Source: Polyangium mundeleinium (GTDB lineage: Bacteria; Myxococcota_A; Polyangia; Polyangiales; Polyangiaceae). Taken from it: DNA of 64,000 nucleotides. The translations under genes and the position numbers were made by a program. Below, piece after piece: positions 1,076 through 52,105 of this stretch; position 1 is the stretch's first letter, and each line of letters opens with the position of its first letter. The notes under the pieces were generated by a model. That model was not told the origin of the DNA. It saw nothing but the letters and a program-made list of their open reading frames with translations, and made no database searches. Location: the NCBI RefSeq assembly GCF_028369105.1, contig NZ_JAQNDO010000001.1, positions 6,976,501-7,040,500 of the forward strand. The letters run 5' to 3'.

Positions 1076-1411
1076 CGCCGGGGTTTCACCCCGGGGCCCC
1101 GACCAGGGGTTGTCCACCCCTGGACCCGGACCAGCGCAAGCGCTGGACGCGGGGTCGATGAACTGCGCATCGCGCAGTTCATCGAACAGCCAGGGTCAAG
1201 ACCGGCGACGATCCTGCCAACCAACACGGCAGCGCTGCAGGTTCAACCAGCAACGCGCCCGCTGCCGGCTTGAAATCCACCTTCAAGGTCTTGCCACCGG
1301 CCCGTTGGAAGAACTGCGCGGAGCGCAGTTCTTCCACCCTCGGTCCAGGCCGTGCCTGGTTCGGGTCGAGGGGCGAACAGCCCCCGCGGGGTCCGGGGCA
1401 GCGCCCCGGCG
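1076..1411. repeat. Composite hairpin repeat, copy A: inverted pair of four-hairpin modules between convergent genes
   Basis: The left module contains H1 1078-1094 (CCGGGG/CCCCGG), H2 1103-1123 (CCAGGGG/CCCCTGG), H3 1131-1146 (CCAGCGC/GCGCTGG) and H4 1155-1185, a perfect 14-bp stem with loop ATC. The right module repeats the same elements in reverse order on the other strand: H4' 1306-1336 (perfect 14-bp stem, loop GGA), H3' 1345-1359 (CCAGGC/GCCTGG), H2' 1370-1384 and H1' 1393-1409. About 120 bp of unstructured sequence separates them. The plus-strand gene ends at 1062 and the minus-strand gene ends at 1465, so each transcript reads H1, H2, H3, H4 in that order. Related copies lie at 12600, 45781 and 54184. 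A role in termination or 3'-end protection is inferred. Confidence 0.9.
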
Positions 1412-3241: not shown

Positions 3242-3798
3242 GTACCCTCGCGTCTTCTGCGCTCGCGCCGCGTCTCTTTTCCTCGGTCCTTGACCGTCAC
3301 CTGCGCGGAGACGGACGGCTTCGGCAAGCCCTTCTGCCCCTCCGCTGCCCCTGCCTCGTCCTCCTCTGGCTCGCCTCCGTCTTCCTCCTCGGCGGAAGGT
3401 TTTTCGGCGGCGCGCGCGTCGTTCGGGACGAAGCGGATCTCCGTCTTGATCTCGAACGAGAGCTTCGTGAGCACCTTCGTCAGCTCGTCGGCGAACTGCG
3501 TGTGTTCGAGGACGTCGCGGATTTCCTTCGCGACGACGCGGTACAGACCGGTCTTCGTGTCGTCGATCTGATGGTAGAGGTAGTTCAAGACCTCCTTCGG
3601 CAGCTTCATGTCCCCCACGAAATGCCGAAGGGTGTCGGGGCCTTCACTCAGCTTGCCGACGCCGGTCTCGACGGCGCGCTCGACGGCGCGCTTGAGCAGC
3701 TCTGGAATGGCACGATCGAACGTGCGCCGCCGCTCCGTCTCCGGCTTCTCCCCCTCGGGCGGCTCTTCACGGCTCGGAAGATCGTCGATGTCGCCCAT
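3238..3798 (-). CDS. Conserved-looking hypothetical protein, charged C-terminus
   Basis: From ATG 3798 this has 186 residues; a GTG at 3810 would add four. The central part (about residues 25-110) is predicted helical, for instance ELLKRAVERAVETGVGKL and LPKEVLNYLYHQIDDTKTGL. The C-terminal third is rich in Glu, Ala and Arg and looks disordered. No enzymatic motif or signal peptide is visible. It overlaps the downstream zinc-ribbon gene by 4 nt, so both products probably act together. I do not recognise the family. Confidence 0.7.
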   Translation of the reverse strand: MGDIDDLPSREEPPEGEKPETERRRTFDRAIPELLKRAVERAVETGVGKLSEGPDTLRHFVGDMKLPKEVLNYLYHQIDDTKTGLYRVVAKEIRDVLEHTQFADELTKVLTKLSFEIKTEIRFVPNDARAAEKPSAEEEDGGEPEEDEAGAAEGQKGLPKPSVSAQVTVKDRGKETRRERRRREGT

Positions 3799-3831
3799 CC
3801 GCCGGCTCACTAGCCAGGAAGGGGGCCTTCG

Positions 3832-4596
3832 TCAATCGGACATCGACACACGGAGCGCCCAAACCTCGGCGACGACCTTTCCTTTTCCGCGCCGGGCGGC
3901 AAGCTCCACTGTCAGGGTATCGTCTTCCAGAGGACAAAACGGCCGATCGGGCTGGACGATGGGCCACCGATCCTCGCCGTGATCCGCGGCGATCGACGTG
4001 CCTCGGCTCGATCGCACCACGACGTCGAGGTCGGTCACGTTCGGATCGGCGACGGCAAAGATCCGATAACACTCACCTTTTTTCGCTTCGAGCGGAAACG
4101 GTACCGGCGCGCCCCCCTCGGCGACCTCCGCCTCCACCGGCTCCTTCGTGAACCGTCGCATCCCGTTCTCCGGACCACAAAGCATCGCCAGGCGCGTGAG
4201 ATCCTTCCGCGGATCCCCTTCGAGTCGAAAGTTGCCGTAACAGCGGATCCAGGGGCCTCCCACACGAACGGGCGAGACGATGGGGTCCTCGTTTCGCGCG
4301 GCCGGGCCTGCTTCGGCGGCGCCGCCGTCGGGGTCGGCCGGGGCCTCGCCGAGCATCGAGGGCGGGAGCTTGGGCAGGGGCGGGGTCGGAGGCGGGGCGT
4401 CGGGCGCGGAGGCGGCGCCGCCGGCCTGCTCCCAGGGGCGCGGGCGCTCGCGACAGCCGGCGAGGAGGGTGAGGCTCGCGAGCGCGGCTAGGAGGAGGAA
4501 GAGGAGGCGCGCGCGGGCACGTCGCGGGTTTGGCCGGCCAAGGTTCTGCGCTAGAGTCCCGGCCCGATGAACATCTTCGCCGAACGCCGCAAGCAA
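3832..4596 (-). CDS. Probable lipoprotein (start uncertain)
   Basis: The frame encodes a lipoprotein signal with hydrophobic core LLFLLLAALASLTLLAGC, whose Cys would be the lipidated residue. A Pro/Ala/Gly-rich linker and a globular domain of about 150 residues follow, including VRVGGPWIRCYGNF and GECYRIFAVADPNVTDLDVVV. The latter resembles periplasmic domains repeated in myxobacterial lipoproteins, but I cannot name it. The start is unclear: the first usable codon upstream of the signal is TTG 4596, which overlaps the divergent pepP start by about 30 nt. No ATG or GTG lies nearer in frame. Confidence 0.65.
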   Translation of the reverse strand: MLAAFGEDVHRAGTLAQNLGRPNPRRARARLLFLLLAALASLTLLAGCRERPRPWEQAGGAASAPDAPPPTPPLPKLPPSMLGEAPADPDGGAAEAGPAARNEDPIVSPVRVGGPWIRCYGNFRLEGDPRKDLTRLAMLCGPENGMRRFTKEPVEAEVAEGGAPVPFPLEAKKGECYRIFAVADPNVTDLDVVVRSSRGTSIAADHGEDRWPIVQPDRPFCPLEDDTLTVELAARRGKGKVVAEVWALRVSMSD

Positions 4597-45780: not shown

Positions 45781-46083
45781 GCCGGGGTTTCACCCCGGGC
45801 CCGACCAGGGGTTGTCCACCCCTGGACCCGGACCAGGCACAGCCTGGACTGGGGGTTGAAAAACTGCGCTCCGCGCAGTTTTTCAAACAGGCCGACGAAG
45901 AAGCCGGGTCGCCAGCCGAACCAGCAGCGCGGCGGTCTTGGTCGGCAACGCCGCTGCTGGTCTTGACCGGGCCTGTTCGATGAGCTGCGCGGAGCGCAGT
46001 TCATCGAGCTTGGGTCCAGCCCCTGGCTGGTCCGGGTCGAGGGGCGGACAGCCCCTCGTCGGGGTCCGGGGTGAAACCCCGGC
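45781..46083. repeat. Composite hairpin repeat, copy C: inverted pair between convergent genes
   Basis: Left module: H1 45782-45798, H2 45805-45825, H3 45833-45847 (CCAGGC/GCCTGG, loop ACA) and H4 45856-45886 (14-bp stem, loop TCC). Right module: H4' 45977-46007 (14-bp stem with one G-T wobble, loop GGA), H3' 46016-46030 (CCAGCC/GGCTGG), H2' 46039-46057 (GAGGGGC/GCCCCTC) and H1' 46066-46082, an exact reverse complement of H1. It lies between the XRE-cupin gene (ends 45762) and folD (ends 46093 from the other side), so both transcripts meet H1 first. Confidence 0.9.
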
Positions 46084-49482: not shown

Positions 49483-50013
49483 TCAGGACAGATCGAGGAT
49501 CCGGTAGTGGTGCCGGTAATCGAAGAGCGGCGAGATCGCGTGCGCGGAGAGCCGCAAGAGGTCGGCGACCCGCGGCTCGTGCGAGATGAAGAGCACGAAA
49601 TCCTGGTGCACCTCGGCGAAGAGCTCGAACAGGCTCGACCGCTGCTGCACGGCGAGCGAGGGCGGCTTCTTCCGGTGCTTGCCGGGATCGGCGCGGAAGC
49701 GCTTCGAGAAAAAGGGACGGTCGTCGCTCTTCACGCTGCGCAGGATCCGCTCGAGATCCTGCGGCCCGACGCGATCCGGCACGAGGCCGCAGAGCGTGAT
49801 GCCGGGCGCCATCCGCGCCTCGTCGAGGTCGTCGAGCTCGCTCGAAATGCACGTCTCGGCCACGAGCCCCGCAGCCTTCATCCGCTCCATCTCGGCGAGC
49901 AGGGCCGACTTGTACATCGCGGGAGACGCATGCTCCGGCGACGCGGGGACATACCCAAAAATGAGACCTCCACGCATGGACCCACGGATCAGGTCCTCCA
50001 TCCGGTACGCCAT
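49483..50013 (-). CDS. Hypothetical protein downstream of a phased repeat array
   Basis: ATG 50013 is preceded by GGAGG at good spacing, which fixes the start although the frame is open further upstream. The 176-residue product has no signal peptide. The sequence is mixed alpha/beta (MKAAGLVAETCISSELDDLD, GITLCGLVPDRVGPQDLERI) with a basic insert (KRFRADPGKHRKK). I do not recognise the family. Its upstream region (50102-50480) carries nine phased T-rich cores. It converges on the small lipoprotein gene, whose stop is 4 bp away. Confidence 0.7.
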   Translation of the reverse strand: MAYRMEDLIRGSMRGGLIFGYVPASPEHASPAMYKSALLAEMERMKAAGLVAETCISSELDDLDEARMAPGITLCGLVPDRVGPQDLERILRSVKSDDRPFFSKRFRADPGKHRKKPPSLAVQQRSSLFELFAEVHQDFVLFISHEPRVADLLRLSAHAISPLFDYRHHYRILDLS

Positions 50014-50101
50014 GCCCCCCTCCGACGTGACGCGCTGATGGAGGAAATCTGTACTCCCGGCGCGCCGCGTCGCAACCCGGGCAAGCGCGTCGAGCGGAGG
50101 G

Positions 50102-50480
50102 CGAGGGGAGCGGCCGACCGGGGCGGTTTGCGGCGCAAACACGTCCAGAGCGCGGCGCGCGGGGGGCTTCGTGCGTGGCGAAATGGATCGGTCCGTCGCC
50201 GACGACCCAGTTCTGCGCGGAGACATCAGCCGGGGGCCGACGACGGGGTCGTTTTGCGATGCAGGACGGGGGATGTCGGCCGCCGACGGTGTCGTTTTGC
50301 GATGCAGGACGGGGGACGTCGGCCGACCACGAGCGGGGTTTGCGGCGGCGGAAGGGGGGAACGAGCGACGCACTGGCGTGTTTTGCGGCGTGAGGCAGGG
50401 CGGCGGCGGGGAGCGGGGCGGTTTTGCGGGGCGGGACACCGGGGGTCGACGACGTCCCCCCGTGTTTCCGCGCGATCCGC
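50102..50480. repeat. Degenerate ~42-bp tandem array with a phased TTTGCG core
   Basis: The core occurs at 50127, about 50169, 50212, 50253, 50296, 50339, 50382, 50423 and about 50465; steps are 42, 43, 41, 43, 43, 43, 41 and 42 bp. Units four and five are nearly identical; the others share only the core and GC-rich spacers. The mean step equals four turns of B-DNA. Steps are not all multiples of three, which argues against a coding repeat. The array fills the gap between two minus-strand genes and would lie 110-455 bp upstream of the gene at 49483-50013, reading CGCAAA on its strand. Confidence 0.75.
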
Positions 50481-50502: not shown

Positions 50503-50901
50503 TCAACGGGCCATGCGGCAGGTTCCCGCCACGCAGCGCACCGGCCGTGGTGCGGCGCATCGGCAAACGGAGCGCCCGCGATGGCATTGCGCCCGGGTCC
50601 AGCGGGAGGCAATGGCATCGAGCTCCGCCTGGTGGACCCTCGTGTTCGCAGCGAAGGAGCAGCCGCCCAGCCCCACGCCACAATGCCCATGAAGCACCTG
50701 GCAACGGTCCGTTTCCTCTTCGCATGCCGTCGTGCGCGGGCTCGTGATTTTCTCCTCGTATTCGCGCTCGATGGCATCACAGACCTGCCGGTCCACCAGG
50801 GACGTCTCCGGGGCATGGGTGTTCCCATCCCCGGGCTCCTCCGGCGTTCCGACACAGGAAAGCAAAAGCGCACAGGGCAACAAATGGGCGATGGCGTTCA
50901 T
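50503..50901 (-). CDS. Small cysteine-rich lipoprotein
   Basis: ATG 50901, with GGGAG upstream, gives 132 residues. The lipobox is HLLPCALLLSC. The mature part is charged, then Cys-rich (EEETDRCQVLHGHCGVGLGG, CHRGRSVCRC, RCVAGTC) and probably disulfide-bonded outside the cell. The last ~40 residues are Arg-rich. No family recognised. It is the last recognisable gene before the accessory patch to its right. Confidence 0.7.
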   Translation of the reverse strand: MNAIAHLLPCALLLSCVGTPEEPGDGNTHAPETSLVDRQVCDAIEREYEEKITSPRTTACEEETDRCQVLHGHCGVGLGGCSFAANTRVHQAELDAIASRWTRAQCHRGRSVCRCAAPRPVRCVAGTCRMAR

Positions 50902-50932
50902 GGCGGCTCCCTTTCCCCTTGGCTCGCTTTCG

Positions 50933-51115
50933 TCAGCGCGCCGGACGCAAGCCCTGGAGCTCGGCAAGAAGAATGCCGCCCGACGTGTACAGGGGGAGAC
51001 CGATCCACGTCCATCTCGCCCGCTTGTCTTCATCGACGAGACGCGCCGAGCCGCCGCTCGAGACCCACCGCGCCGAGTTGCCCCCGCCGAGCCCGGCGAC
51101 AGAGAAGCTCAGCAT
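50933..51115 (-). pseudogene. Possible truncated coding remnant
   Basis: From ATG 51115 a 60-residue frame with high third-position GC (FSVAGLGGGNSARWVSSGG and onward) ends 32 bp upstream of the lipoprotein start. The open frame continues upstream to 51205, then stops just where base composition drops. It looks like the 3' end of a gene cut by the AT-richer segment that begins near 51206, but a small intact gene cannot be excluded. No domain is recognised. Confidence 0.3.
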
Positions 51116-51205: not shown

Positions 51206-51601
51206 TCAACATCGTTGTACAATTACCGTGAGTATCAAACAACTCCACCGCCTGCAGCACGAATGTAACCGAACCACCTCTTGACTCATACGGATCTAGC
51301 AAAGCAAGCTGGGCTCACTTCAGTCCAGAGCGCACTTCACACGCGCAATGAGCGATGCCGCATAGGACTACGAAAACGCATTTCGTGCGCTGAGCAAGTC
51401 CGACCGCCGCATCGTCCCACGCACCAGCCTGTGGATCAGCTCTGAGAGAAGCGTACGTTTGCTGCATAGGCAGTACCGGGTTCCGGTCGGGTTGTCCAGG
51501 AAGCAATTCGACGAGGCCCCGGAATGTGTGACGATTCAAAAGGTGATGTTTTCTGCATCGTAGCCGATGTTTACGGGATTCGTGTCAAGGAGATCATGAT
51601 C
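51206..51601. other. AT-richer non-coding stretch
   Basis: About 400 bp with clearly lower GC than its surroundings (for instance around 51206-51300). Stop codons are frequent and no frame is convincing. There is no transposase, no terminal inverted repeat and no tRNA. A Shine-Dalgarno AAGGAG at 51587-51592 belongs to the following gene. Confidence 0.6.
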
Positions 51602-52105
51602 ATGGGACAGAAGAAGGCAGGCGGAAGAATGCTCGGTGTTGCTGTTTTGGCACTACTGACGACTGTAATCCTTTCAGGCTGTGCCTACGAAACGAGTGAG
51701 GAAGAGACGCAAGAGACCTCGGACGCGCTCTATGATTCCCCGCAGCTTACGGGCAGCGGTGTTCTCGCGTTGCACGCTGCGCAGGCTCTCACACAAGCAA
51801 ATGGAAATGCGTGGGAGTACTGCGGTTTGGTCGTCCGGAAAGCCAACGGTGAGTACCGCGCTGGAGCCCCGGTGACACAGAATTCCCAGACATCCTGCTC
51901 GGCGAGCATTTCACTATCTTCGGGCGAAAGCGTCGTGGGCTTTTACCATACGCATCCTGCCGGGGTGGAGGATGAGTTTAGCCCCGAGGACATAGCTGAC
52001 GCCGAAGCCGGCAATCGCATGTACTTCGTGGCATGCAGCGATGGCTGTGGCTATAGGTACGACCCCGCGACCAATATCACCTGGGGTCTCGGTTGCTCGT
52101 TCTGA
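51602..52105 (+). CDS. Lipoprotein with JAMM-type (DUF4329-like) metallopeptidase domain
   Basis: AAGGAG at 51587 favours ATG 51602 (9-nt spacing) over ATG 51596. The 167-residue product has a lipobox (LTTVILSGC). The mature domain contains EYCGLVVRKANGEYRAG and then GFYHTHPAGVEDEFSPEDIA: HxH, a short loop and SxxD are the zinc ligands and polar residue of JAMM/MPN+ metallopeptidases, as in DUF4329 domains. A surface peptidase or isopeptidase is inferred. GC content and codon use are lower than in neighbours, suggesting acquisition by transfer. Confidence 0.75.
   Translation: MGQKKAGGRMLGVAVLALLTTVILSGCAYETSEEETQETSDALYDSPQLTGSGVLALHAAQALTQANGNAWEYCGLVVRKANGEYRAGAPVTQNSQTSCSASISLSSGESVVGFYHTHPAGVEDEFSPEDIADAEAGNRMYFVACSDGCGYRYDPATNITWGLGCSF

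Follow-up and report, generated by a model that had tools for sequence, protein, structure and literature searches.

What kind of element is formed by the T-rich cores that recur about every 42 bp between two minus-strand reading frames of Polyangium mundeleinium? Within the window, i.e., the whole 64,000-nucleotide stretch of DNA that was analysed, the first-pass annotation had reported nine such cores at ~42-bp steps, and its count holds for eight units, spaced at 41-44 bp, and for a ninth that is weak. The array (GC = 0.73) is flanked by the minus-strand gene 49483-50013 and by a minus-strand ORF at 50503-51033. Its features are listed below, with the core start defined as the base preceding the Ts (approximate, ~50464, for the ninth core).

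50106..50472, plus strand: diverged tandem array; eight units spaced 41-44 bp apart and the weak ninth
50126..50134, plus strand: core 1, GTTTGCGGC
50167..50175, plus strand: core 2, CTTCGTGCG, degenerate
50210..50218, plus strand: core 3, GTTCTGCGC, degenerate (GTTCTGCG)
50251..50259, plus strand: core 4, GTTTTGCGA
50294..50302, plus strand: core 5, GTTTTGCGA
50338..50346, plus strand: core 6, GTTTGCGGC
50380..50388, plus strand: core 7, GTTTTGCGG
50421..50429, plus strand: core 8, GTTTTGCGG
50464..50472, plus strand: weak ninth core, GTTTCCGCG, assigned by eye, degenerate, its conservation not clear

The core-to-core steps are 41, 43, 41, 43, 44, 42, and 41 bp, followed by 43 bp to the ninth core (placed by eye). 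The TTTGCG/TTTTGCG spelling is present in 6 of the 9 cores, with cores 2, 3, and 9 being degenerate. The periodicity of the cores is confirmed as real and far above chance. The autocorrelation against shuffled sequence that had been named as a possible refutation gives a clear excess: identity at lag 43 equals 0.503. For 1000 dinucleotide shuffles the mean is 0.321 (sd 0.024), and no shuffle matches the observed value at any lag of 10-120 or reaches the T-run score (lags 15-120). Both scores stay at 0/1000 when one of the twin units 4 and 5, which are 93% identical over 43 bp, is removed. The pattern TTTGCG-N33..39-TTTGCG occurs 4 times in the window, every time in the array (shuffle mean 0.03, n = 100), and the top five of 1272 window tiles ranked by T-run periodicity at 40-44 bp all overlap it. 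Tandem Repeats Finder reports a 43-bp unit at 50235-50331.

The spacers, previously described as unconserved except in units 4 and 5, proved partly conserved, as identity without one twin is still 0.45 at lag 43 and 0.46 at lag 84. Common to the units are a CCGACG-like element 6-10 bp 5' of the core and, 3' of it, a GGAAGGGGG-like stretch. The unit consensus is CGnGGGCCGnCGACGGnCnnGTTTTGCGnnGGnGGAnGGGGGG, obtained from 25 of the 30 units of four genomes (the core-2 units and core 1 of Polyangium fumosum were excluded), and two columns are invariant among these 25 aligned units. Since the units share more than the core, the array is a tandem repeat of 42-43 bp, now worn, rather than a set of lone cores amid random spacers. 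CRISPR arrays combine near-identical repeats of ~23-47 bp with unique spacers; the window array resembles them in its regular spacing but has a short core and a 42-bp step in place of a long identical repeat. A CRISPR array is not supported, given that near identity is limited to units 4 and 5 and that just two columns are invariant among the 25 of 30 units. As for a coding repeat, the minus-strand frame of gene 49483-50013 stays open across the array (318-aa ORF from GTG at 50439); this candidate was rejected, because open frames abound in GC-rich DNA and the steps are mostly not multiples of three. The annotation had likewise judged a coding repeat unlikely, with which the kilobases between array and gene in two relatives (see below) agree.

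The array was next compared among six Polyangium genomes: the own genome (G000, 13.25 Mb), P. fumosum DSM 14668 (G001), sp. y55x31 (G002), sp. 6x1 (G003), sp. 15x6 (G004), and G005. Relatives had been proposed as a place to look for the array, and orthologues were indeed found in P. fumosum and two congeners (steps of 40-45, 42-43, and 41-43 bp), the array region matching at 86% in P. fumosum, 73% in sp. 15x6, and 71% in G005. Counting the own genome, 4 of the 6 congeners thus carry the array, one has three cores, and one has none. Unit numbers are ~8-9 in the own genome, 8 in P. fumosum, 7 in sp. 15x6, 8 in G005, 3 in sp. y55x31 (steps of 41 and 43 bp, counted by hand), and 0 in sp. 6x1, where no cores were seen by eye beside the neighbour gene. 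Two further features are needed here.

49483..50013, minus strand: neighbour gene, 176 aa, outside the array
50021..50134, minus strand: conserved leader of gene 49483-50013, including core 1

At E up to 1, the product of this gene has no match among the Pfam families. The gene is found in 6 of the 6 congeners and, weakly, in 1 of 102 other genomes of the family. The annotation had placed the array upstream of it, which is true of the window and of G005, where the two adjoin; a fixed tie is contradicted by the other species, since ~1.8 kb (P. fumosum) and ~4.4 kb (sp. 15x6) of other sequence lie between them and sp. 6x1 is array-less. With such distances in two of the four genomes, the array is not simply the operator of that gene and would thus behave as a separate element. 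Genes beside the array differ among species. A T-rich core is present at the place of core 1 beside the gene in P. fumosum, sp. 15x6, and G005, is degenerate in sp. y55x31, and is missing in sp. 6x1; in P. fumosum core 1 also occurs in the array copy, and the 64-bp block 50071-50134 is present twice, on either side of the insert. Absence of the array from relatives that keep the flanking genes had been named as evidence against it. Judged on gene 49483-50013, this is the case in sp. 6x1 and nearly so in sp. y55x31, which marks the array as dispensable.

Several observations concern the surroundings of the array. The ~1.8-kb insert of P. fumosum (within L083, 4185-6490) holds a small, presumably cysteine-rich ORF and an ORF that we take to be DsbD-like; it resembles an insertion with duplicated target, or else a deletion in the other species. 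In sp. y55x31, a 7-copy 43-bp array without T-rich core (L086, 3184-3497) lies ~1 kb away from what is left there of the window array. Within the window, the ORF at 51524-52105 has a DUF4329 / Prok-JAB domain and, by eye, probably encodes a lipoprotein.

Conservation of cores and spacers was counted in the alignment of the four arrays, with the window as reference. The core Ts are retained in 24, 23, and 25 of 28 cases in P. fumosum, sp. 15x6, and G005, respectively, and the spacer Ts in 16, 8, and 9 of 26. In sp. 15x6 and G005, the retention of core Ts is ~2.6-fold that of spacer Ts (Fisher P = 2.6e-4 and 4.8e-5), a ratio that may be inflated if the alignment is pulled to T-runs; for P. fumosum, the nearest relative, the excess of core Ts is not significant (P = 0.06). 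Among 36 eight-base phase windows, evaluated over cores 2-8, the one at the core start ranks top in sp. 15x6 (0.88, mean 0.67) and G005 (0.84, mean 0.67), and the top one in P. fumosum begins 3 bp into the core.

The register is maintained as well. The length from core 2 to core 7 equals 213, 212, 213, and 212 bp in the own genome, P. fumosum, sp. 15x6, and G005, with 1-2 gap columns, at an identity to the window of 89%, 68%, and 67% for the latter three, although exchange between units may slow divergence. The claim that all cores face the same side of the helix is supported, the phase coherence in the four genomes being 0.80-0.98 at 10.55-10.65 bp/turn and 0.72-0.91 at 10.5. Core 2 reads TTCGTG in the own genome, sp. 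15x6, and G005 ((C/G)TTCGTG in the last two) and ATCGTG in P. fumosum, and core 3 reads TTCTGCG in all four genomes; that these degenerate cores keep their spelling in three and four genomes, respectively, argues against simple homogenisation. Core-T retention in sp. 15x6 and G005, together with the core 2-core 7 length held at 67-68% identity, makes selection on the cores and their register likely. The binding sites suggested in the annotation would fit the better retention of cores than of spacers.

Further sites of the unit were searched for with a unit profile in the six Polyangium genomes, scoring the best 150 of ~20,000 candidates per genome. The matches comprise the orthologous arrays, several linker sites of a presumably DnaX-like gene in G005, and scattered single sites, and G005 has a second matching locus at C1:128 kb. 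In the genome scan that the annotation had called for, the best 150 of 22,848 candidates of the own genome comprise six units of the array and, elsewhere, two borderline sites (E 0.009). No profile site is found in sp. 6x1 among the best 150 candidates. A large regulon is unlikely, as judged from the best 150 of 22,848 candidates. The unit family probably occupies more than one locus within the genus, and perhaps lies even inside a gene.

According to pattern counts, TTTGCG pairs 39-45 bp apart are present 25 times in the own genome (4 of them in this array), and the reversed pattern 11 times. Pairs of TTTTG at a distance of 41-43 bp (TTTTG-N36..38-TTTTG), however, are rarer than their reversed control in 6 of 6 genus genomes, and GTTTTG-N35..38-TTTTG, found in 75 of 108 family genomes, has control counts of the same size. 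True GTTTTG arrays also match the reversed control, which for them is thus not independent. Genome-wide periodicity of the cores was rejected on the TTTTG and GTTTTG counts. GTTTTG triplets are found in 29 of 108 family genomes and at least 99 of 371 phylum genomes, and include 41-43 bp arrays but also units of 27-28, 31-33, 36, 38, 45, and 51-53 bp; CTTTTC triplets are found in more family genomes (48 of 108) and matched coding repeats and further 42-44 bp arrays. Since the triplet searches show coding repeats and other unit lengths, a core-independent repeat survey was relied on. A search of the plasmid collection gave no match.

Two kinds of loci were noticed along the way. The gene with 42-bp repeats that we assume to be DnaX-like from its protein features was seen in G005 (L191, 4314-4587) and sp. 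y55x31 (L186, 2985-3282); several units of the G005 linker match the profile of the window array, and its 42-bp repeats are in-frame by eye. The own genome has a second group of T-rich cores at L193, ~3629-3850 (GTTTTGCAG twice, TTTTCGG, GTTTGCG, and GTTTTGCG), which are 43 and 41 bp apart where measured and have spacers other than those of the window array.

The survey was performed with Tandem Repeats Finder on spaced 20-kb stretches, chosen regardless of content, plus the window, together 2.064 Mb; eight genomes of the phylum are represented. Among the intergenic arrays with units of 31-62 bp, as separated from genic ones by a crude codon-based gene finder, 23 of 28 have units of 41-44 bp, with a mean of 42.44 bp, or about four helical turns. 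The share is 22 of 27 without the window's own array and 19 of 24 after dropping four possibly related arrays. By genome, it amounts to 12/14 in P. mundeleinium, 2/2 in G005, 4/6 in G012, 2/2 in G072, 3/3 in G109, and 0/1 in G100; the sampled stretches of G088 and G108 have no intergenic arrays with units of 31-62 bp. The 800 kb of P. mundeleinium surveyed beyond the window contain 11 such arrays, which would extrapolate to ~180 per genome, and its next group has units of 21-22 bp (10 of 33 intergenic arrays of at least 15 bp). In comparison, 5 of 25 coding arrays of 30-66 bp fall at 41-44 bp, and order-4 Markov sequence modelled on the P. mundeleinium and G005 samples (2.53 Mb) yields 8 arrays with units no longer than 26 bp. 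In 400 kb from two megaplasmids outside the phylum there are two intergenic arrays, of 22 and 25 bp, a modest control in view of their lower GC (0.62 and 0.64) and plasmid nature. Given the other unit lengths among the GTTTTG triplets, four-turn unit length is a strong preference within the survey, not a law. The first-pass annotation overlooked that such genomes contain many 42-43 bp arrays besides its own.

The 23 class units are nearly all unrelated in sequence, with 4 of 253 array pairs scoring above the largest of 250 null scores. TTTTG/CAAAA is seen, by eye, in the window's consensus only; together with the greater number of genomes having CTTTTC than GTTTTG triplets, this means that T-rich cores are no class marker. 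Mean palindromy of the unit is z = 1.77 (s.e. 0.38) for the 23 class arrays, 0.63 (s.e. 0.20) for other intergenic arrays, and 0.02 (s.e. 0.23) for the 25 coding ones, and 9-12 of the 23 are palindromic over the unit at z >2; for the window unit, no palindromy is seen at the DNA level (z -0.23 ungapped, 1.0 gapped). The 10.5-bp harmonic in 38 units (20 of the 23 class arrays and 18 picked from pattern-found arrays) has P values of 0.003 for A/T dinucleotides, 0.002 for purines, 0.02 for A/T, and 0.17 for G/T. Purines reach significance in the first subset but not in the second, A/T dinucleotides in the second but not in the first; T-runs were part of the choice of the second subset, and the harmonic is no more than suggestive of a DNA-level constraint. 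Among titles and abstract openings of the open-licence literature, no paper on such arrays was found, and the part of the myxobacterial genomics review PMC8538405 that was consulted makes no mention of them.

Other repeats came up in the same material. Intergenic 28-bp two-copy repeats of the GGGGTTTCACCCC..GACC..GACCA type recur in the genus (window 1080-1134 and 45784-45837; L215, L289, and L290). Related 44- and 43-bp arrays are present in G100 (L197, 2357-2915) and G099 (L205, 2150-2319); their palindromes differ by paired changes (AGATGGGTGGCACCCATCT, AGACGAGTGGCACTCGTCT) and are followed by a T-run as in tandem terminators. Palindromic GCTTGCGTCGATGCAAAC-like repeats lie at L013, ~1501.

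Bacterial minisatellites or VNTR loci, such as the mycobacterial MIRUs, consist of head-to-tail intergenic units of tens of bp. The window array shares with them head-to-tail copies in the 10-100 bp range and a copy number that differs between relatives (across the six congeners), but departs from them in a core better conserved than the rest (two relatives) and in a length common to unrelated arrays. It is quite possible that the array is a neutral minisatellite, a functionless 43-bp unit copied by slippage or unequal exchange and decaying by point mutation and whole-unit loss, with the class length set by a mutational bias of the lineage. The whole-unit differences among species, the absence in sp. 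6x1, and the 42-bp arrays in the DnaX-like gene of G005 and sp. y55x31, along with the 5 of 25 coding arrays at 41-44 bp, all fit; the ~2.6-fold retention of core Ts in sp. 15x6 and G005, the core 2-core 7 length constant within 1 bp at 67% identity, and the mostly retained spelling of degenerate cores do not. With two of the three congeners providing the evidence for selection, this neutral origin is nearly as likely as the reading preferred below. Operator arrays bound cooperatively at whole-turn spacing also have conserved short cores on one helical face, but the window array has neither clear regulon copies (best 150 of 22,848 candidates) nor a constant neighbour gene. That it serves as an operator or enhancer of gene 49483-50013, to which a local regulator would bind cooperatively, is improbable: the position directly upstream in the window and G005 and the T-rich core left beside the gene in P. 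fumosum, sp. y55x31, and sp. 15x6 are outweighed by the kilobase distances in P. fumosum and sp. 15x6 and by the gene without array in sp. 6x1.

An element acting in RNA, as tandem hairpins or terminators, is a slightly poorer candidate still. Class units are often palindromic, the window consensus folds at z -1.80 against shuffles on the plus strand (-0.71 on the minus strand), and there is one weak terminator-like site at 50274-50288. However, terminator-like sites number 2 versus a shuffled mean of 1.1 (sd 1.3), the only Rfam match is at chance level (E 0.92), the window unit itself lacks palindromy as DNA, neighbouring genes vary among species, and four-turn spacing is needless for RNA function. 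The phased bend proposed in the annotation, i.e., intrinsic curvature through T-tracts, finds the T-runs in helical register but is very unlikely. Phased A-tract bends have tracts of at least four about once per turn; here, a four-T run is found in only 4 of the 9 cores and tract density is one per four turns, in DNA with a GC of 0.73 and a conserved core that reads TTCTG. Least credible are mobile palindromes of the REP/BIME kind, with a Y1 (RAYT) transposase as their mover. Palindromic intergenic repeats do exist in the class, but the window unit is not one of them, no clear second locus appears among the best 150 of 22,848 candidates of the own genome, and no Y1_Tnp (PF01797) match is found there at E up to 0.001, with the control search positive in 5 of 14 known genomes.

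The reading that we prefer, while giving it somewhat less than an even chance, is that the array is an old intergenic four-turn minisatellite, a class member whose cores are kept by selection as putative protein sites and which would act as a stand-alone element. It starts from direct observations, namely, tandem structure, orthologues, whole-unit copy differences, core and spacing conservation in divergent orthologues, and the class unit length. The cores (~GTTYTGYG, with CCGACG just 5') would be held on one helical face by selection, and a putative DNA-binding, probably architectural, protein may occupy successive units side by side. The array would then act as an intergenic element in its own right, not as operator of gene 49483-50013, and the four-turn unit may arise from, or be filtered by, a process reading helical phase, not sequence.

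In filamentous cyanobacteria, the LTRR repeats have a 37-bp unit and belong to one sequence family. Intergenic tandem arrays with a lineage-typical unit length are common to both cases; the arrays described here, unlike LTRRs, are nearly all unrelated in sequence. For the phylum, we tentatively propose, a little less firmly than for the window itself, that many Myxococcota carry numerous sequence-unrelated intergenic arrays of ~42.4 bp because four turns are gauged, whatever the sequence, either by the copying process or by a protein that wraps DNA, the window array being an old member with T-rich cores under selection. Intergenic minisatellites are usually seen as slippage products of arbitrary unit length. 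If the proposal is true, the four-turn length common to unrelated arrays would point to a ruler, which may be a nucleoid protein wrapping or bridging DNA in steps of 42 bp, or a duplication process under helical constraint.
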